A DNA stretch of 64,000 nucleotides from a virus. Location: the IMG/VR virus record IMGVR_UViG_3300032246_001180, positions 62,001-126,000 of that record, one strand, 5' to 3'. Positions 2,708 through 11,439 of the stretch are shown here, piece after piece. The position numbers were made by a program, and so were the translations under genes. The stretch's first letter is position 1. Each line of letters begins with the position of its first letter. The notes under the pieces are model-generated. The model worked only from the letters and a program-made list of their open reading frames with translations, did no database searches and was not told where the DNA came from.

Positions 2708-2715
2708 TATAAATA
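2708..2715 (+). promoter_or_regulatory. T4-type late promoter TATAAATA
   Basis: Exact TATAAATA box 60 bases before the gene at 2776, the consensus read by the gp55/gp33 late sigma system in T4. Followed by a start with an AAGGA ribosome site. Implies late expression of the 2.8-8 kb block. Confidence 0.7.
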
Positions 2716-2775: not shown

Positions 2776-3966
2776 ATGTTGACATTTAAAACGTATTTGA
2801 CTGAGGAAGCCGAAGAAGGTTCCCAACTTAAACATATCCACCATGCGGAAGATAGACCGTTGATGCATGGCCATGCTGGTTTCGAACACGCATTTGATGC
2901 TTTACACAAAGCACACGAACACATTAAATCTGGCCAAAAAAGTTCGAACCTAACAATGAAGTATGATGGTTCTCCTTCACTCGTTTTTGGTCATCATCCT
3001 AAGAATGGTAAATTCTTTGTCGCATCTAAATCTGCTTTCAACAAAAATCCAAAGATTAATCATACAGAAAAAGATATTGACAAGAACCACGGCCACGCTC
3101 CTGGTCTTGCAAAAGCACTCAAACACGCACTTAAGCATTTACCAAAAGTAACACCTAAACATGGTGTTTATCAAGGTGACCTGATGCATCATGCAGAAAC
3201 AAAGACTTTGCATGAAGAATATATTGCAGAAGCCAAAGGTGATGTTTCATTCACACCAAACACTATCACCTATACTGCAAAAGGCGAAACAGCAAAGAAG
3301 GTTAAAAACTCAAAAGTAGGTGTTGTTGTTCATCACAAATATGATGATGAAATGAAACACGCTTCACCTAAAGTTGACCATGAAAATTTCAAACAACATA
3401 AAGATGTTCATATTCATGGTGCAGAACACGACACAAGCAAAGTAAAACATTCAGCTGAAAACGAATCAGGTTTTCACAAGCATATGTCTGCCGCCAAAGA
3501 AATACATGATACACATGGCCACAAGATGTATGATTCCGTTCACCCAAAACACTCAGGTGAAACTGGCCACCTATCAACCTACATAAACAAGACCGTGCGA
3601 CATGATGAGGTTCCATCTGTGAAAGGATTTAAAGAACATCTGAAAGACGTACATGAAAAGGCAGCTTCTAAAGTTAAAACAGAAAAGGCCAAGTCAGAAA
3701 AAACTGGTGAGGGCGCCAAACAAGTTGCCCACGTTGAGAAACACAAAGCACATTATGGTAATTTATTGACTATGCATCATCATTTACATCAAGCAAAGAA
3801 TCACTTAGTTAAATCATTAGAAACACATGAAGGTGATTATGAGCATCATATTGAAGGTAAGAAATCAAAGCCAGAAGGATTCGTTGTACATCACAACAAT
3901 GAACCTACTAAGTTGGTCAACCGTGCAGAATTTGCCAAACAAAATCTGTTAAAAGTCCGCAAATGA
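2776..3966 (+). CDS. Ligase-like nucleotidyltransferase (KxDG), His/Lys-rich, DUF6267-type
   Basis: 396 residues, strikingly rich in His and Lys. MKYDGSPSLVFG places a KxDG motif at residues 62-65, the nucleotide-attaching lysine motif of DNA/RNA ligases and capping enzymes. GVYQGDLMH (130-138) could be motif III, PEGFVVHH (366-373) motif IV and KLVNR (379-383) motif V. The order fits the ligase core, with a His-rich insertion in the middle. The N-terminus MLTFKTYLTEE resembles a T4 capsid-targeting peptide, with LTE a possible gp21-type cleavage site. Overlaps the next gene by 4 bases. Catalytic assignment is inferred from motifs. Confidence 0.6.
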   Translation: MLTFKTYLTEEAEEGSQLKHIHHAEDRPLMHGHAGFEHAFDALHKAHEHIKSGQKSSNLTMKYDGSPSLVFGHHPKNGKFFVASKSAFNKNPKINHTEKDIDKNHGHAPGLAKALKHALKHLPKVTPKHGVYQGDLMHHAETKTLHEEYIAEAKGDVSFTPNTITYTAKGETAKKVKNSKVGVVVHHKYDDEMKHASPKVDHENFKQHKDVHIHGAEHDTSKVKHSAENESGFHKHMSAAKEIHDTHGHKMYDSVHPKHSGETGHLSTYINKTVRHDEVPSVKGFKEHLKDVHEKAASKVKTEKAKSEKTGEGAKQVAHVEKHKAHYGNLLTMHHHLHQAKNHLVKSLETHEGDYEHHIEGKKSKPEGFVVHHNNEPTKLVNRAEFAKQNLLKVRK

Positions 3967-5732
3967 AATCGTTTCTACAGTTAGTTGAAGAACAAAAATC
4001 TGGTGAGAATCACCATGTTATGACGTTTGGTCGTATGAATCCTCCTACGACCGGACATTTGAAATTAATCAATAAAGTTAAAGATGTTGCTAAAAAGCAA
4101 GGCGCTTCACATTCTGTAGTGGTATCTCATTCTCAAGATGCAAAGAAAAATCCCCTATCAGGTGAACAAAAAGTTAAACACCTGAAAAGATATGCACCAG
4201 ATACAAATGTTGAATCTTCTTCAAAAGAACATCCTACAATCATGCACCATGCTGAGAAGTTACACAAAAAAGGTGTAACTCATCTTCATGTTGTTGCTGG
4301 TTCGGACCGTGTTAAAGAATACCATGACCTATTACACAAGTATAATGGTAAACCAAACAAAGAAGGTCATGTACCATATCACTTCAAAAAAATAACTGTA
4401 CATTCAGCAGGACACCGTGATCCGGACGCTGAGGGTTCTGAAGGTATGTCTGGCACCAAGATGCGTGAACACGCCAAGAGTAAGAACTTTAAAGAGTTTA
4501 GAAAAGGTGTTCCTGGTCACGTTTCAGATGAACACGCAAAAGAACTCATGCATGATACTAGAAAAGGTATGGGTCTGCATGAGAATCATTATCATGGAAT
4601 GTTCAAAGCAATTTTTGTAACAGGCGGTCCTGGTTCTGGCAAAGATGTTGTCATTCGTGAGTCGATTGCTGTAGCAAATGCAGTAGAACTAAACGCTGTT
4701 CAAGCATACGACTATTTGGCTGACAAACAAAAGTTGTCTGAAAAAACTGATGACTTCCGCAGAGAAGCAATTCGCAACCGTGGTCCGTTGGTTATTAATA
4801 GTCCTGCGGACGATGTACAGAGAATTAGTTACATCAAAGAAGAATTGGAAGAACTTGGATACGACACCATGATGGTGTTCGTTAACACAACAGATGCTGC
4901 AAGCAAAGAAAGAAACACCAAACTTTCTCGCATGATGGTTGAATCTATCCGCCACGAAAAGTGGTTAAAATCGCAGAAAAACAAAGAACTTTTTACAGAA
5001 TCTTTTTCCACTTTTGTTGAATTCGATAACAATCAAACAATCGACCAAATTGAGGAAGATATTACTGACACTTACAAGAATATAAATAGGTTCGTAAGTA
5101 ATGAAATGCATAGTGAATTGGCTTCAGATTGGTTTGTAAGACGCAATAAATTAAATATATTTGAGGAAAAAAATGTTAAAAGCTCTACTGGATTTTCTAA
5201 AATTAAAACCTCGGGTAACCGAGCAGAAGGACCCTGTGATATCCCAGCCGACAATCGTGCCGGAGCCACAGACACCGGTGACGATATCCGTGGAAACACC
5301 TATCCAAGAAAATATCCAAACAAAACCTACACGTTCAAAACCTACAGCGAAGAAGCAAAGCTTAAAGTCAACCCCAGCCCCAAAGAAAGCAACTTCTCCA
5401 GGGACAAGGAAAAAGACAAAGTAAAGAATAAAAGATTCGTTGATGCACCTACAGTAAATCAACGAATCAGAAATACAGATGGAATTGGTCCACAATTCGA
5501 TACACGCCAACAGGGAACAGTATATCCTATGTCAGGTCTAGGCGATGTAACATATAAAGAACAAAAAGAATTTAGTAGTTTTAAAAAATTTAGAGAAGCT
5601 ATTGACGATCCAGGTGCCTGTGATATGGGTGTTGGTGGAACTCTAGGTGGCGCTACTAATAAAGAACCAATGCAATCGTATAAAGATGCAGATAGAAACA
5701 TCGGTATTCAAATTAAGAAGAAAAAGAAATAG
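3963..5732 (+). CDS. Nucleotidyltransferase (HxGH-like) fused to P-loop kinase
   Basis: 589 residues. Residues 20-35 hold MTFGRMNPPTTGHLKLI, a cytidylyltransferase/NMNAT nucleotide-binding motif (TTGH for HxGH), with the matching SGTKMREH near 163-170. A second domain starts near 212 with a Walker A GGPGSGKD (221-228), as in small-molecule kinases. Residues 400-589 are basic, low-complexity and probably unstructured, ending in a Lys run. The start MKSFLQLVEEQ looks like a capsid-targeting peptide. This combination recalls NAD-salvage enzymes joining adenylyltransferase and kinase activity, but the substrate cannot be read from sequence. Confidence 0.65.
   Translation: MKSFLQLVEEQKSGENHHVMTFGRMNPPTTGHLKLINKVKDVAKKQGASHSVVVSHSQDAKKNPLSGEQKVKHLKRYAPDTNVESSSKEHPTIMHHAEKLHKKGVTHLHVVAGSDRVKEYHDLLHKYNGKPNKEGHVPYHFKKITVHSAGHRDPDAEGSEGMSGTKMREHAKSKNFKEFRKGVPGHVSDEHAKELMHDTRKGMGLHENHYHGMFKAIFVTGGPGSGKDVVIRESIAVANAVELNAVQAYDYLADKQKLSEKTDDFRREAIRNRGPLVINSPADDVQRISYIKEELEELGYDTMMVFVNTTDAASKERNTKLSRMMVESIRHEKWLKSQKNKELFTESFSTFVEFDNNQTIDQIEEDITDTYKNINRFVSNEMHSELASDWFVRRNKLNIFEEKNVKSSTGFSKIKTSGNRAEGPCDIPADNRAGATDTGDDIRGNTYPRKYPNKTYTFKTYSEEAKLKVNPSPKESNFSRDKEKDKVKNKRFVDAPTVNQRIRNTDGIGPQFDTRQQGTVYPMSGLGDVTYKEQKEFSSFKKFREAIDDPGACDMGVGGTLGGATNKEPMQSYKDADRNIGIQIKKKKK
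5081..5088 (+). promoter_or_regulatory. T4-type late promoter TATAAATA inside gene
   Basis: Exact TATAAATA box within the 3' third of the 3963-5732 gene. It could drive the nested frame at 5173 or the genes from 5742. Only the box itself is seen. Confidence 0.5.
5173..5424 (+). CDS. Candidate nested gene: Pro/Lys-rich 83-residue protein
   Basis: Lies wholly inside the 3963-5732 gene in another frame. Support: strong ribosome site GAGG (5163-5166) six bases before ATG 5173, and a TATAAATA box about 90 bases upstream. The product would have an amphipathic start MLKALLDFLKLKPRV followed by a Pro/Thr/Lys-rich tail. Against it: the host frame also looks coding here. No family recognised; could be a chance open frame. 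Confidence 0.3.
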   Translation: MLKALLDFLKLKPRVTEQKDPVISQPTIVPEPQTPVTISVETPIQENIQTKPTRSKPTAKKQSLKSTPAPKKATSPGTRKKTK

Positions 5733-5741
5733 GAGAACTCA

Positions 5742-7145
5742 ATGTTTGTAAAAAATAATAAACTAGCCTCTATAGCATCTGCTGTCAGCGAAGTTATGGA
5801 AGCATCACCAGTAAAAATCCAAACTCCAACAGGAACAAGAGTTCTTGGTACACGTTATGGAAATTCTGCTAAAGCACACCATGACCAAGTAGCTGATCCG
5901 TTTGCTGGTCATAAAGGTCCTGCTAAGAAAGATTTAGAAGACATCGAGAAACCAAAGAAAAAACAAGAGAGTTTTTCTGCTTTCACAAACAAATTACTCA
6001 ATAATTTACAAGAAGATAAAAAAATTCAAAAACAAATTGATGAAGTTCTTAAAAAAGACGCATCAGCTGGCGATTGGATTCACGATTTTGTACATTCGGA
6101 CAATCCTAAATTTGCAGGTAAATCTAAAGCTGAACGCAAGAAAATGGCTCTTGGTGCTTATTATGCGAAACAAAATGAAGAAGCTGATGCTGATTTAGAT
6201 TTGAAAAATAGAAAAGACGAAAGAGAAGAAACCAATGCTATAAAGTCCATCAAAGCTAAAGCAACAGAAAAAGACCAAAAGATTGATAACTTTGATCCAA
6301 AATATGGCAAACCAAATGCCTTTGGCGAAGAAGTTGAACAACAAGACGAAGCTTTGATTGGCAATCAGAAAAAAATTGATAAGAACCATAATAACAAAAT
6401 TGATGCACAAGATTTTAAAATTCTTCGTGGTAAAAAGAAAGCAAATGAAGAAATAGAACAAGCCGATGAAGCTGTTCGTGTTTTTGACATTTCTAAGTCA
6501 GCTGCTGGTGTAAAACCAAAAACTCCTGAGGACCGCAACAAAGCTGCTGCTGTGGTCAAAGCTGCAAGAGCAAACAAACCAACAAACAATTATACTGGTA
6601 AATCTATTATTGGTGCTGGTTCAGTTGGCACAGGTCAACGTCAAGCTGGACAAACAGCATCACATATTGCTGTTAAAGAAGAAGAAGAATTGGACGAATC
6701 AGTAACAAGAAAACATTTCCAACAAGTTGCTGATTTAATTAAGACACATGATAATTCAGCAAAGCGTAAAGAATTAGCAAGCCATCATGCTGAAATTTTC
6801 AAACAACAGAATCCTCGTTTTGACCATGCCAAGTTTATGAAAGCTTGTAATGTAAATGAAGAAACTGTTGGTGAAACTTTAAATCCTGCAAAAAAAACTA
6901 TCGATACATTGGCTGGTCGTAGCAAAAAAGTTCCAAAAGATGCACAGATGGATAATGGCCATGCTTCTGCAAAAACAGAATTAAAAGTTGAAGAAAAAGA
7001 TGTTCCATTTGATGGACCATATACAAAAAAAACACCAGATTCGATTAAAGATAAATCTGGTGCAACGCACACACCTATGTCCCGTGCCAAACATTTAGCT
7101 CAAACAGCACTCAAAAAAATCAAAAGTGATTTGAAAGTTAAGTGA
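5742..7145 (+). CDS. Conserved T4-like structural/internal protein, Lys/Ala-rich
   Basis: 467 residues with an AGGAG ribosome site eight bases before the start. Charged, Ala/Lys/Glu-rich, with acidic patches (NEEADADLDL, EEVEQQDEA, EEEELDES) that recur every 70-100 residues, each ending near a (L/V)xE triplet; this could reflect prohead-protease processing. A stretch WIHDFVHSDNPKFAGKSKAE near residues 112-131 resembles the DUF-type segment seen in T4-like internal proteins. No membrane segment. Lies in the late block, so probably a scaffold or internal head protein; function unknown. Confidence 0.6.
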   Translation: MFVKNNKLASIASAVSEVMEASPVKIQTPTGTRVLGTRYGNSAKAHHDQVADPFAGHKGPAKKDLEDIEKPKKKQESFSAFTNKLLNNLQEDKKIQKQIDEVLKKDASAGDWIHDFVHSDNPKFAGKSKAERKKMALGAYYAKQNEEADADLDLKNRKDEREETNAIKSIKAKATEKDQKIDNFDPKYGKPNAFGEEVEQQDEALIGNQKKIDKNHNNKIDAQDFKILRGKKKANEEIEQADEAVRVFDISKSAAGVKPKTPEDRNKAAAVVKAARANKPTNNYTGKSIIGAGSVGTGQRQAGQTASHIAVKEEEELDESVTRKHFQQVADLIKTHDNSAKRKELASHHAEIFKQQNPRFDHAKFMKACNVNEETVGETLNPAKKTIDTLAGRSKKVPKDAQMDNGHASAKTELKVEEKDVPFDGPYTKKTPDSIKDKSGATHTPMSRAKHLAQTALKKIKSDLKVK

Positions 7146-7146
7146 G

Positions 7147-8160
7147 ATGGAAACTTCTAAAAAATTAAAGCAGTTAATTAAACCTAACATTAATGAAGGT
7201 GCTCTAGAACAGTACCTTATGGCGAAAGGTATCAATCCAAAGTTTGTTTCTACACAAACTAAGATATCTCATGCTAAGTCATCTGCTTTTATAAAGTGGA
7301 AGCAAGACCACATGATGGAATCAACAGACAAGAAAGATACAGTAGTCTTAGATATTCCATTATTGATTCGTGTATTAGAATTGGCCAGAGAAGATATCAA
7401 AACGGATATGGACTTACACCGTGTGGTTGAGAAACTAATCTCAATACGCACCAAAGGTGTTTTGACTATGGATGATTATAATACGATTGCCAATATCAAA
7501 GAGAATCACATTGCAATCGCTATGGGTAAGATGCTTGATGATGAAGGCAGCATGATTCTTGACCAGATGGACCAATTAGAACGTGCAATCACAATGATTC
7601 GTACTTATGTTGGTAAAGACTATGAGAAACAATTGCCTGCATGGGTTCAGTCTAAGATAACACTTGCAACAGATTATGTCGATACTGTTGGTAACTATTT
7701 GTCCAGTAAAAATGAAGAAGTAGTTTCAGAAGTTAGTTCTGAACTATTAGACCGTTACAAAGAAAAAGCTAAGAAGTCTGCTGATGAGTTAACATCTAAA
7801 GGTCAACATAAGAAGTCCACAGACCGTTGGATGGGTGTTATGAAAGCGACCGGTAAACAAATTGAAAAGACTACTGCAAATATTAAAAAAACTTTAGGTA
7901 AAGAAGAAGTGGTTTATGAAACCAAAAAAGATGATGGTTATACAAAATCAGCAAGAATGATTAAAGCCATATATGGAAAGTTACCTAAAACAAAAACTTT
8001 AGATACAAAAAACAACGTGGGCGATAAAGCTCAAGCGGCAGCCGTTCTTACTGGTGGCAAAACATTAACAGGTCAAACTAGAGATACTTTAGAAATTGAT
8101 CCTGTAATGCGTAAAGGTGACCCGTTAGAACTTCAAAAACAACAGAAAAAATTAAGATAA
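7147..8160 (+). CDS. Conserved hypothetical protein of T4-like phages
   Basis: 337 residues, starts one base after the previous stop. The central stretch LDIPLLIRVLELAREDIKTD and DLHRVVEKLI form a helical module I recognise from many marine T4-like phages, where it is unannotated. The C-terminal third is Lys-rich (SADELTSKGQHKKSTDRWM). No catalytic motif or signal peptide. Expressed with the late block by position; a structural or internal role is an inference. Confidence 0.55.
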   Translation: METSKKLKQLIKPNINEGALEQYLMAKGINPKFVSTQTKISHAKSSAFIKWKQDHMMESTDKKDTVVLDIPLLIRVLELAREDIKTDMDLHRVVEKLISIRTKGVLTMDDYNTIANIKENHIAIAMGKMLDDEGSMILDQMDQLERAITMIRTYVGKDYEKQLPAWVQSKITLATDYVDTVGNYLSSKNEEVVSEVSSELLDRYKEKAKKSADELTSKGQHKKSTDRWMGVMKATGKQIEKTTANIKKTLGKEEVVYETKKDDGYTKSARMIKAIYGKLPKTKTLDTKNNVGDKAQAAAVLTGGKTLTGQTRDTLEIDPVMRKGDPLELQKQQKKLR

Positions 8161-8197
8161 ATAGATACATAACCCGAGGTTAATCAAGGAGAACAAA

Positions 8198-8851
8198 ATG
8201 CCATTATGGGGAAACACAGACGCAGCGAACAACAAGCCACACTTCTCAAATCTAAGAGAAGTTACGCCAGTTGCTTCGTTCATCACAGCTAATGCAACTG
8301 CCATTGGTGCAAACGGTATCACGTTTACATCCAATGCAAACTTTTCAGTTCTAGCAGCTGGAATGTTTGTTTATTCAAACGATGCTAATAACGCTATTTC
8401 TAGGTCTAATAAAGATTTAAGTGTTATTGACGGAAATGAAATGAGTTTTTGGAAATCAAATAATACAATTACTCAAATCGATACCGCAAACTCAAAGATT
8501 TTAATTAGAAACAATGCAATGTTTACTTTAGCTACTGGTTCAACAGTTGCTGTAGGTAATGCCATTTCTTATCATACCAACACAATCGCAGTTAATGCTG
8601 CGAACGATGTTATCTTGGTAACTGCAACTCGTATGGCCAATACATCAGGTACAACTGGTGCGGGCGGTTCAAACGTTGCTAATACTAAATTAGGTGCCAT
8701 AAATCAAGGTTGGAATAGAATCACTCGTAAGATTAATTCTGATGGTACTATTCGTTTCTTAAAAGAAACTTTAGTTGCTCTCGCTAACGTACAAGCTTCT
8801 AACACTAGTTCCGCTAACACTTCGGCTAATGCTATTTTTGGTGGCGTATAA
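8198..8851 (+). CDS. Putative virion structural protein (MPLWG family)
   Basis: 217 residues, excellent ribosome site AAGGAG seven bases before ATG. Starts MPLWGNTDAANNKPHF, a beginning shared by a virion protein family of marine T4-like phages. The rest is rich in Ala, Asn, Thr and Ser with beta-strand-like alternation, typical of head decoration or fibre-like proteins. A late-like GATAAATA sequence lies just upstream (8156-8163). A strong hairpin terminator follows. Confidence 0.55.
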   Translation: MPLWGNTDAANNKPHFSNLREVTPVASFITANATAIGANGITFTSNANFSVLAAGMFVYSNDANNAISRSNKDLSVIDGNEMSFWKSNNTITQIDTANSKILIRNNAMFTLATGSTVAVGNAISYHTNTIAVNAANDVILVTATRMANTSGTTGAGGSNVANTKLGAINQGWNRITRKINSDGTIRFLKETLVALANVQASNTSSANTSANAIFGGV

Positions 8852-8877
8852 GTATAGTTAGTTGCTGACGTAAACCG

Positions 8878-8955
8878 ACCTTGCGGACAAACTATCCAGG
8901 GAATTCATAATCCCATATGGCGACTGGATACAAACCCGCAAGGTTTTTGTTTTTA
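8878..8955 (+). terminator. Multi-tier structured terminator
   Basis: Outer stem ACCTTGCGG (8878-8886) with CCGCAAGGT (8936-8944), inner stem TATCCAG (8893-8899) with CTGGATA (8924-8930), and an apical GGGA/TCCC helix, then a T-rich run to 8955. It is much larger than a normal intrinsic terminator and follows the abundant-looking structural gene. Confidence 0.7.
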
Positions 8956-8975
8956 TAGGATTGAATAATAAAAAA

Positions 8976-9365
8976 ATGATATTTGATGAATTGAATGAAG
9001 ATAATTTCATGATATATGCAATGAAGTGCTATAACTCGCCTCATTGTATTATGTCAGAATTTGAAAGCGATATTAAAAGAACTAAGTATCTAAAACGATT
9101 ATTTCGTAGGTACAAAATAACTAAATCTTTGAAAGAAAGATTGATATTGAATCACATCATTTTATTAAATAATGTTTTTGGACCGGTGCATACACCGAGA
9201 ATATTATTTTATAAAACTGATGAGAGGGATTACGATATACTGAAAACGTTTTTATCGTATCTTAATATTATGCCAGATGAAGTTAAAGGAATCAGGGGTA
9301 AAAATCTTCATATCTCTGATATACCGTTAGAACCTAATGTTGTAGAGATATTAAGACGTATATGA
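8976..9365 (+). CDS. Conserved T4-like hypothetical protein (DUF7207-like)
   Basis: 129 residues from ATG 8976; a TTG at 8961 is in frame but sits right on the AGGA. The helical core YLKRLFRRY...LKERLILNHIILLNNVFG is a hallmark of a small protein conserved across T4-like phages, often next to late genes; its role is unknown. Overlaps the following gene by 4 bases. Confidence 0.6.
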   Translation: MIFDELNEDNFMIYAMKCYNSPHCIMSEFESDIKRTKYLKRLFRRYKITKSLKERLILNHIILLNNVFGPVHTPRILFYKTDERDYDILKTFLSYLNIMPDEVKGIRGKNLHISDIPLEPNVVEILRRI

Positions 9366-9805
9366 AAACTTTTAAAAAATTCTTAGAAGAAAATTGTTGT
9401 TGTGTTACCGCTTTGGAAAAAGGTTTAAAGAAGTTAGATAATCACGACTATGATTCAATTAATAAATTGATGATGAGTATTTCTAAAAAAAATAACATTA
9501 CAGGTAAAGAATTACACGATGATTTCGTGGCCAAACACGGAAAAACTCCAGATGATTGGATTAAACAAGGTTTAAAAGAAGATTTAAGAAAATGGTTTAA
9601 ACAAAAGTGGGTTCGTATGGACACCAAAGGTAATATTAAAGGTGATTGTGCTAGAGAACCTGGTGAAGGTAAACCAAAGTGTTTACCTCAAGCAAAAGCT
9701 CATGCAATTGGTAAAGATGCTCGTGCTTCTGCTGCTCGGAGAAAACGCAGGGAAGATCCAAATCCAGAACGTCATGGTGCACCAATCAATGTCAGGACAA
9801 AATAA
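9362..9805 (+). CDS. Small basic protein with capsid-targeting-like N-terminus (DUF5872/6321-like)
   Basis: 147 residues. N-terminus MKTFKKFLEEN resembles the T4 internal-protein capsid-targeting sequence, with LEE as possible cleavage site. The C-terminal half (LRKWFKQKWVRMDTKG, a Cys-Ala-Arg patch, CLPQAKAHAIG, RRKRRE) is a basic Cys-containing module common in marine phages, of unknown function. Probably packaged in the head, an inference. Confidence 0.55.
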   Translation: MKTFKKFLEENCCCVTALEKGLKKLDNHDYDSINKLMMSISKKNNITGKELHDDFVAKHGKTPDDWIKQGLKEDLRKWFKQKWVRMDTKGNIKGDCAREPGEGKPKCLPQAKAHAIGKDARASAARRKRREDPNPERHGAPINVRTK

Positions 9806-9806
9806 T

Positions 9807-10388
9807 ATGAAAACACTAAAACAATTTAAAGAAGAAGTTGAAAATTTAGAAGAAAAAAATGTTCCTACTAGTCCAGAAAAATGGGCTGCTGCAAAAGCCG
9901 CAGCTAAATCAAAATTTGCTGTATATCCTTCTGCCTATGCAAATGGCTGGGCATCTAAGAAATATAAAGCAATGGGTGGTGGTTGGAAAAGTGTTAGTGA
10001 AGAACTTGAAGAATTGTTTGATATCATTGAAGAAATGGTTGAAGAATCTGCACTAAAACATAATGTTGATCCAGAATCAATTTGGAAAGAACTTGAACAA
10101 GTATCAGACGAAGAATTATATGAGTCTGCTGCATGGCAAAGAGCAGCAGGTAAAGACCCTAAAGGCGGCCTAAATCGTAAAGGTATTGCCTCATATCGTG
10201 CAGAACATCCTGGTTCCAAACTGTCCATGGCAGTTACAACAAAACCGTCTAAATTAAAACCCGGATCGAAGGCAGCTAAACGTAGAAAATCTTTCTGTGC
10301 TCGTATGGGTGGCATGGAAGGACCTATGAAAAAACCAAATGGTAAACCAACTCGTAAAGCATTAGCTTTAAGAAAATGGAATTGTTAA
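9807..10388 (+). CDS. Internal-type protein with capsid-targeting-like N-terminus
   Basis: 193 residues. MKTLKQFKEEVENLEEK resembles a capsid-targeting peptide. Residues 20-60 (KWAAAKAAAKSKFAVYPS, ANGWASKKYKAMGGGW) and the C-terminal SFCARMGGMEGPMKKPNGK repeat the basic module of the neighbouring genes. A very acidic helix (EELEELFDIIEEMVEE) lies between. Shares its first 20-odd bases with the gene at 10388, pointing to duplication. TAATG overlap with that gene. Confidence 0.55.
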   Translation: MKTLKQFKEEVENLEEKNVPTSPEKWAAAKAAAKSKFAVYPSAYANGWASKKYKAMGGGWKSVSEELEELFDIIEEMVEESALKHNVDPESIWKELEQVSDEELYESAAWQRAAGKDPKGGLNRKGIASYRAEHPGSKLSMAVTTKPSKLKPGSKAAKRRKSFCARMGGMEGPMKKPNGKPTRKALALRKWNC

Positions 10389-10624
10389 TGAAAACACTAA
10401 AACAATTTAAAGAATCGTGCTGGCCTGGATATAAACGTAAAAAAGGCACACAAGAATTTGCAAAAGGTAGTTGTGTTAAAGAAGATGGTGCTGTTGCAGG
10501 TCCCACTAACGCTGTTGGTGGTGGCGCAATTGCTGGATCTGGTGGCCGTGGTGGAGAACCAGGTGTTAGTAAAAAAAGAACACCTATAATGTTATCTATG
10601 GCTAAAAGAAAACCTCCTCAATAA
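10388..10624 (+). CDS. Short Gly/Lys-rich relative of preceding internal protein
   Basis: 78 residues, starting in the stop codon of the previous gene and sharing its MKTLKQFKE start. Residues 10-32 (SCWPGYKRKKGTQEFAKGSC) form a Cys-bracketed basic patch, followed by a Gly/Ala-rich linker and a basic tail. No LxE cleavage triplet near the N-terminus. Function unknown. Confidence 0.5.
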   Translation: MKTLKQFKESCWPGYKRKKGTQEFAKGSCVKEDGAVAGPTNAVGGGAIAGSGGRGGEPGVSKKRTPIMLSMAKRKPPQ

Positions 10625-10632
10625 AATTCTAA

Positions 10633-11439
10633 ATGATTAATATTAGTGGTTTGAACATTTCAGGCGGAATTAATTTTGTTTTAGACTCTCCTGATGGTTT
10701 AACATCCAGTCGAGCAGCTACCTCAGCATATGCAATTAAACAGGCATATCCTAATTCTGCAAGTGGTTTGTATTGGATTCAAAACGCAAACATAAACTCT
10801 GGTAATCCAGTTCAGGTATATTGTGATATGACCACACTTGGTGGTGGTTGGACTCTCATCATGCAGAACAACTATGGTGATTGGACATTCAGTAATGCTC
10901 TATTGAGAAATCAAACATCCGCACCTAGTTCTCTTGCCGCTGAATATGTTTCTGGTAGTGCGGGTAGTAATGGAAATTATAGTATTATTGGTTGGGCAGA
11001 TTATATTAAGAAATCATCAAGTGGTTTCGATTATATGATGGATGCAGGATATCGTGGTCGTAATGGCGGTGCATGGACTGCCAATCAACCATACAGTTTT
11101 GTTGGCCAATACGATAACTCATCATTTGGTACAGATGTGGTTGCTGGTAGCGATGGTTTCAGACAGAATATAACATTACTTTCATCATTCTATACTGGCC
11201 AAACTGGTACCGGCACTTGGTCTTATAACGATAATGGTTTAGAGAAACGAATGCCATGGTATGCAAATAATGGCGCAAACGCAACTGTTGTTGGTGGTGC
11301 TATTTTTACTACAACACACAATGATAGTGGTTCATGGTGGGGAACATTGATGAGTATTGGTGGCGGTTGGGATCCTGCACCTTGGCAATCTGAAACTGGT
11401 TGGGGTTATCCAAAAGTTATTTGGTATTGGGTAAGATAA
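10633..11439 (+). CDS. Fibrinogen-related domain protein (lectin-like, probable virion adhesin)
   Basis: 268 residues. SGLYWIQNANINSGNPVQVYCDMTT and GGGWTLIMQ near residues 52-82 match the start of the fibrinogen C-terminal globular fold (YCDM and GGGWT landmarks). The remainder is rich in Gly, Trp and Asn with repeated short strands and ends in YPKVIWYWVR. The domain binds sugars in animal lectins and is rare in phages, so a receptor-binding or adhesive role on the virion is likely. No signal peptide. Confidence 0.65.
   Translation: MINISGLNISGGINFVLDSPDGLTSSRAATSAYAIKQAYPNSASGLYWIQNANINSGNPVQVYCDMTTLGGGWTLIMQNNYGDWTFSNALLRNQTSAPSSLAAEYVSGSAGSNGNYSIIGWADYIKKSSSGFDYMMDAGYRGRNGGAWTANQPYSFVGQYDNSSFGTDVVAGSDGFRQNITLLSSFYTGQTGTGTWSYNDNGLEKRMPWYANNGANATVVGGAIFTTTHNDSGSWWGTLMSIGGGWDPAPWQSETGWGYPKVIWYWVR

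Follow-up and report, generated by a model that had tools for sequence, protein, structure and literature searches.

Leader Genes and Head Module

The window analyzed here is a stretch of 64,000 nucleotides that covers bases 62001-126000 of the 168,242-base virus record IMGVR_UViG_3300032246_001180, a T4-like genome. In its left part sits a block of five plus-strand genes, named here by their first base, whose products begin with similar short leaders although the bodies behind them are unrelated. A first-pass annotation had listed these five reading frames and their N-termini, and all of them were recovered at the same places: MLTFKTYLTEE (2776), MKSFLQLVEEQ (3963), MKTFKKFLEEN (9362), MKTLKQFKEEV (9807) and MKTLKQFKESC (10388). 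The first gene (2776..3966) encodes a ligase-like protein of 396 aa with DUF6267 (PF19782), and the second (3963..5732) a NadR-like nucleotidyltransferase joined to a P-loop kinase, 589 aa in all, with the leader MKSFLQLVEE. The other three encode smaller proteins: one of 147 aa (9362..9805) with a C-terminal basic domain ending RRKRREDPNPERHG..., one of 193 aa (9807..10388) in which the leader MKTLKQFKEEVENLEE is followed by a YPSAYANG domain and DUF6321 (PF19846), and one of 78 aa (10388..10624) composed of the leader MKTLKQFKES, a CWPGY domain and a stretch that copies the N-arm of mature gp23. Two untagged proteins lie amid the tagged ones (5742-8160), and a domain in the second of them is directly tagged in some relatives. 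The block is adjoined by a protein with a fibrinogen-C-like domain (10633-11439), possibly an adhesin. A T4 late-promoter-like box, TATAAATA, is located at 2708..2715 on the plus strand, 60 bases upstream of 2776, the first leader gene. Such boxes are no commoner across the window than expected by chance (5 vs 5.75) and were discarded as evidence; only its good placement supports the box at 2708.

The head module lies outside the window and comprises gp17, gp18, gp19 and gp20 (names assigned by inspection of their sequences), a prohead-core-like gene, the gp21 protease, the gp22 scaffold and gp23. A genome search for a gp21-type protease, suggested in the first-pass annotation as a check, was positive, and a gp21-family prohead protease is encoded at C1:18131-18775 (PF03420, E 1.2e-38). 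A 76-codon gene with a TTG start between gp20 and gp21 (C1:16966-17196; L003 6966-7196) carries a perfect leader, MKTLKEFLSE.

The Leader and the T4 Rule

The first 10 residues of the T4 internal protein IPIII are enough for packaging, with targeting set by residues 4 and 7 and processing by residues 8 and 10, and the cleavage site of gp21 lies after (L/I)xE (PMC9026906). The start MKTYQEFIAEA, which had been ascribed to the T4 internal proteins in general, is correct for IPII and IPIII and wrong for IPI, which begins MKTFKEFTSTTTPVSTITEA. Each of the five leaders has a hydrophobic or aromatic residue at both targeting positions, position 4 being F or L and position 7, in gene order, Y, L, F, F and F. 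The processing residues, an aliphatic one at 8 and E at 10, are present in 2776 (codons 1-10 at 2776..2805; F4, Y7, L8, E10), which thereby fits the T4 rule, in 3963 (3963..3992; F4, L7, V8, E10) and in 9362 (9362..9391; F4, F7, L8, E10), and absent in 9807 and 10388. An LxE-type triplet does occur in four of the five, as claimed earlier: LTE at 8-10 in 2776, LVE at 7-9 in 3963, LEE at 8-10 in 9362, and LEE at 14-16 in 9807, where it is the sole processing feature and gives the leader (9807..9854; targeting residues L4, F7) the layout of T4 IPI. The leader of 10388 (10388..10414) has no LxE cut site. Its 27 nucleotides from the ATG are identical to those of 9807 despite unrelated bodies, which suggests copying of leader DNA. 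AlphaFold2 models the first 19 residues of 2776 as a loose tail and places the start of the well-folded body at residue 20.

The T4 IPIII mutagenesis was expressed as the rule M..[FYWL]..[FYWL][ILVMF].E. Its positions come from T4, but the residue classes were picked after some S-CREM2 N-termini were known. In the phage's own genome (window plus 40 kb), 4 of 186 genes match, namely 2776, 3963, 9362 and the head-module gene C1:16966, against a shuffled mean of 0.106, and none of 3000 shuffles reached four; 9807 and 10388 satisfy the targeting half only. Whole-genome pattern scans found no additional clear leader at gene starts beyond the leader block and the head module. In T4, taken as a control (276 called genes from four stretches), the rule selects only ipII, ipIII and gene 61.1.

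Distribution and Modularity of the Leader

In 160 related viral loci taken together, the rule fits 200 of 2153 gene starts where about 2 would be expected. Among the 80 close loci, 142 of 1180 first starts match (1.4 when shuffled; internal methionines 21/5544), and among 80 more distant ones 58 of 973 do (0.77 when shuffled; internal methionines 3/5033). The ligase-like gene 2776 keeps its leader in all 80 close relatives. Copies of one gene in several loci do not count as independent cases, which makes the tally of unrelated bodies the sounder measure. The leader-bearing bodies sort into more than 20 groups that show no BLAST similarity to one another; HAD-like and ATP-grasp-like enzymes, identified by eye or from a Melnitz annotation, are among them. 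Phage HTVC008M has no strict match to the rule, only the looser MKSFKDF and MKTFTDF.

The arrangement of domains behind the leader is observed to vary. The DUF6321 domain of 9807 comes straight after a leader in five loci (L025, L036, L037, L043, L169), whereas it is preceded by a leader plus the CWPGY domain of 10388 in L184 and by a leader plus the 9362 domain in L048. The domain at window position 7354 has no leader here and in several relatives and is directly tagged in three others (L028, L057, L079). Because one domain occurs both tagged and untagged, and unrelated bodies carrying the leader are many, the leader is best described as a portable module.

Candidate Cargo Enzymes

The reading of 2776 as ligase-like, made earlier from the sequence alone, fits the presence of motifs I, III, IV and V of the covalent nucleotidyltransferase superfamily: KxDG (I), EGxV (IV) and the motif V lysine, K(L), are invariant in seven distant DUF6267 proteins, and motif III, of the (Q)GD type, is nearly so. 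In a fold search, T4 DNA ligase and tRNA ligase ranked first among PDB entries, with E values of at least 0.3 and hence not significant, and a PDB sequence search with DUF6267 and with 3963 returned nothing useful. The other enzyme proposed at the outset, a nucleotidyltransferase-kinase encoded by 3963, has an N-terminal nucleotidyltransferase with an xGH motif (GRMNPPTTGH) followed by a P-loop kinase (GGPGSGKD), and its structure model, which is of moderate confidence, has as its top Foldseek match over both domains the NadR of Haemophilus influenzae (1lw7, E 2.2e-7, 409 columns). Adenylate and polynucleotide kinases match the kinase part nearly as well as NadR. As far as the model can tell, 3963 is thus NadR-like (NMN adenylyltransferase/ribosylnicotinamide kinase), its activity on NMN and nicotinamide riboside being untested. 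A single profile, PHROG family 455, spans both 2776 and 3963, and the two may therefore act together. Their job can only be inferred; they may restore NAD early on or repair nucleic acids in the face of host defence.

Tagged Proteins in Cyanophage Virions

For cyanophage S-CREM2 (219 genes, 52 virion proteins) the list of virion proteins has been published (PMC10665884), and five of its six rule-matching genes are in the virion set (P = 0.003); set against non-structural virion proteins, the enrichment of tagged genes has P = 1.7e-4. The five are a SAM hydrolase, a kinase, a cytidylyltransferase and two unknowns. Combining S-CREM2 with S-SCSM1 (1/2 tagged genes found in the virion), S-SZBM1 (0/2) and S-SM1 (1/1) gives seven tagged proteins seen in virions against 2.2 expected (P = 0.0016). 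In these combined figures, gene totals are approximate for S-SCSM1 and S-SM1, and the S-SM1 virion set is limited to proteins named in the paper's text. S-CREM2 supplies most of the proteome signal, and neither S-SZBM1 nor S-SCSM1 alone gives a significant enrichment. The syntenic block also encodes many untagged virion proteins, and co-purification of abundant enzymes could not be excluded by the S-CREM2 authors (PMC10665884). The S-CREM2 protein gp12 (L097 7704-10313), annotated as Cas9 and detected in virions, contains LRFASFMAEAA, a stretch resembling a leader, at residues 17-27; 16 residues of other sequence precede it, and it begins with CTG rather than a usual start codon.

Homologues of 3963 have repeatedly been reported as virion proteins, in S-CREM2 (PMC10665884), S-SCSM1 (PMC9602691), S-SZBM1 (PMC9146016) and S-SM1 (PMC3037559). 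Their leaders are MKNFSSFLTEA, MKSFLQFLKEA, MRFRQFIIEA (one residue shorter) and MKKFSAFLNEA, respectively. The 9362 protein is homologous to the virion proteins S-CREM2 gp160 and S-SCSM1_29, DUF6321 of 9807 is also found in S-CREM2 gp137 and S-SCSM1_29, and the domains of 9362, 9807 and 10388 occur fused in gp160/gp137 and S-SCSM1_29. Four of the five window proteins consequently have virion-borne homologues. For the ligase-like 2776, no report of virion presence was found in the published lists and papers searched; in S-SZBM1 the ligase-like _141 has no leader and is absent from the virion list, and its tagged neighbour _140 is in the virion.

A Probable Capsid-Targeting Address and Its Alternatives

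We consider it quite probable that the leader serves for T4-type capsid targeting, as a portable tag by which cargo is loaded into the head, cut by gp21 and injected. During head assembly, leader residues 4 and 7, each of them an aromatic residue or a leucine, would bind the prohead core, and this binding would bring the tagged protein into the prohead. The gp21-type protease would then cleave behind (L/I)xE and free the cargo, which would remain with the DNA and go into the next host, and recombination would shift the tag module from body to body. The cargo of the studied phage would consist of the ligase-like enzyme, the NadR-like (NAD-salvage) enzyme and three small basic or cysteine-bearing domain proteins. 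The targeting part of this reading, put forward in the first-pass annotation, is well supported by the T4-critical residues, the modularity, the gp21 protease and the tagged virion proteins of S-CREM2, that is, by sequence and by published proteomics of relatives without mass spectrometry of the phage itself, in which targeting by the tag remains an inference. Given a T4-like head-loading tag and the fact that four of the five proteins have relatives in purified particles of other phages, the phage probably carries and injects these proteins, injection again being inferred.

The leader could also load the prohead core with proteins that serve as assembly factors and, like T4 gp68, are broken down or lost before the head matures, with little or no injection. 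The tagged S-SZBM1_191, S-SZBM1_192 and S-SCSM1_30, undetected in published virion proteomics, belong to the region of head and neck genes, and the tagged gene C1:16966 sits between gp20 and gp21; against this, tagged enzymes have been reported from mature virions of S-CREM2, S-SM1, S-SCSM1 and S-SZBM1, and we regard this explanation as unlikely. Less likely still is an N-terminal helix for some other partner (such as a host component or a protein of the tail or neck) that resembles the T4 tag by convergence. The binding partner of the leader is untested and 9807 and 10388 do not have the processing half, which leaves room for such a partner, but the agreement at four T4-critical residues, the gp21 protease and the association with virion enzymes speak against it. 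Chance likeness in an A+T-rich genome, where codon composition biases proteins towards K, T, F, L and E, or common descent of whole genes can hardly be maintained, chance being contradicted by the shuffles and the internal methionines and descent contradicted by the unrelated bodies.

Under the capsid-targeting reading, cutting has to be judged gene by gene. The gp23 of this lineage retains LNE at the expected propeptide end, and relatives have FLSE-A, FLGE-I and ALTE-D there (the dash marking the presumed cut). These motifs fit an (L/I)xE protease, so cutting of 2776 (MLTFKTYLTE-E), 3963 and 9362 (MKTFKKFLEE-N) is likely, though no protein of the lineage has yet been shown to be trimmed. For 9807 and 10388, in which processing residues 8 and 10 are missing, cutting is doubtful.

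Copies of the gp23 N-arm

Small head-linked proteins with a copy of the N-arm of the phage's own mature gp23 occur in the window (10490-10537) and at two other loci (L098 28342-29235 and L107 23122-23307). In 10388 the copy, AVAGPTNAVGGGAIAG (own gp23: ADAGPTNATGSGVANF; 10490..10537, plus strand), is followed by a basic tail; it scores 45 against a shuffle maximum of 37 (n=2000), the match being short and the gp23 of other phages scoring equally well. Higher scores are obtained between the virion proteins S-CREM2 gp160 (95 vs 49) and S-SCSM1_97 (83 vs 44) and their own gp23. T4 gp61.1 (NC_000866.4 18966-19130, L103), a 54-aa protein of unknown function, has the capsid-targeting-like start MKTFKEFIKE and contains an ungapped match to T4 gp23 57-93 across the gp21 cut site (82 vs 43), and is a candidate for an unrecognised T4 internal protein. 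It resembles 10388 in joining the tag to a copy of its own mature gp23 N-arm and differs in having no CWPGY domain and in a gp23 match that also covers the cut site. T4 Inh was rejected as a gp23 mimic (score 21). PHROG 696 is perhaps named "major head protein" because of such copies. That the arm copy serves for docking or as a decoy at the capsid wall is no more than a guess.

Relation to Known Systems and Significance

The closest known system is that of T4 IPI, IPII and IPIII, alike in their N-terminal 10-20 residues, with hydrophobic residues 4 and 7, an (L/I)xE motif and gp21 present, and likewise with the tag on bodies of no common descent. Here, in contrast, the tag is carried by enzymes (ligase-like and NadR-like) and by far more families, in phages distant from coliphages, and two of the five proteins do not have the processing residues. 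T4 Alt is also an enzyme packaged in the head, injected and trimmed by gp21; it differs in starting MELITELFDED, and no sequence relation to the window bodies was seen. The virion NMNAT/cytidylyltransferase of cyanophages (T4-GC190; S-CREM2 gp154, S-SCSM1_91) shares with 3963 a homologous nucleotidyltransferase domain, the same tag and a similar neighbourhood, whereas 3963 adds the NadR-like P-loop kinase domain and a long tail. According to a review, the ejection proteins of the giant phages phiKZ and SPN3US are head proteins that a gp21-like protease cuts behind a glutamate and that are ejected, but with other propeptides and another motif rather than a short tag. The tag itself is thus known from T4, and its potential to load various proteins in T4-like phages has already been proposed (PMC9026906); what is new is the same code in other phages, the enzyme cargo and the far larger repertoire. 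In the literature searched, "capsid targeting" occurs together with "cyanophage" only in that T4 review (PMC9026906), subscription papers being mostly outside the search.

More broadly, and with somewhat less assurance than for the leader itself, we favour the view that in marine and freshwater T4-like phages unrelated enzymes by the dozen are brought into the head by one portable, T4-like N-terminal address code, and that the gp23 N-arm copy docks some of the cargo on the capsid wall. Enzymes have repeatedly been reported from cyanophage virions with their entry route unknown and with the worry of contamination, and a tag of T4 mechanism would address both. The leaders also represent natural tags for protein loading of phage heads. 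If the shared address code is true, the proteins that an uncultured phage injects become readable from its genome, and the tag would predict the injected cargo of many such phages, including NAD salvage enzymes, ligase, SAM hydrolase, kinases, and ATP-grasp-like and HAD-like enzymes.
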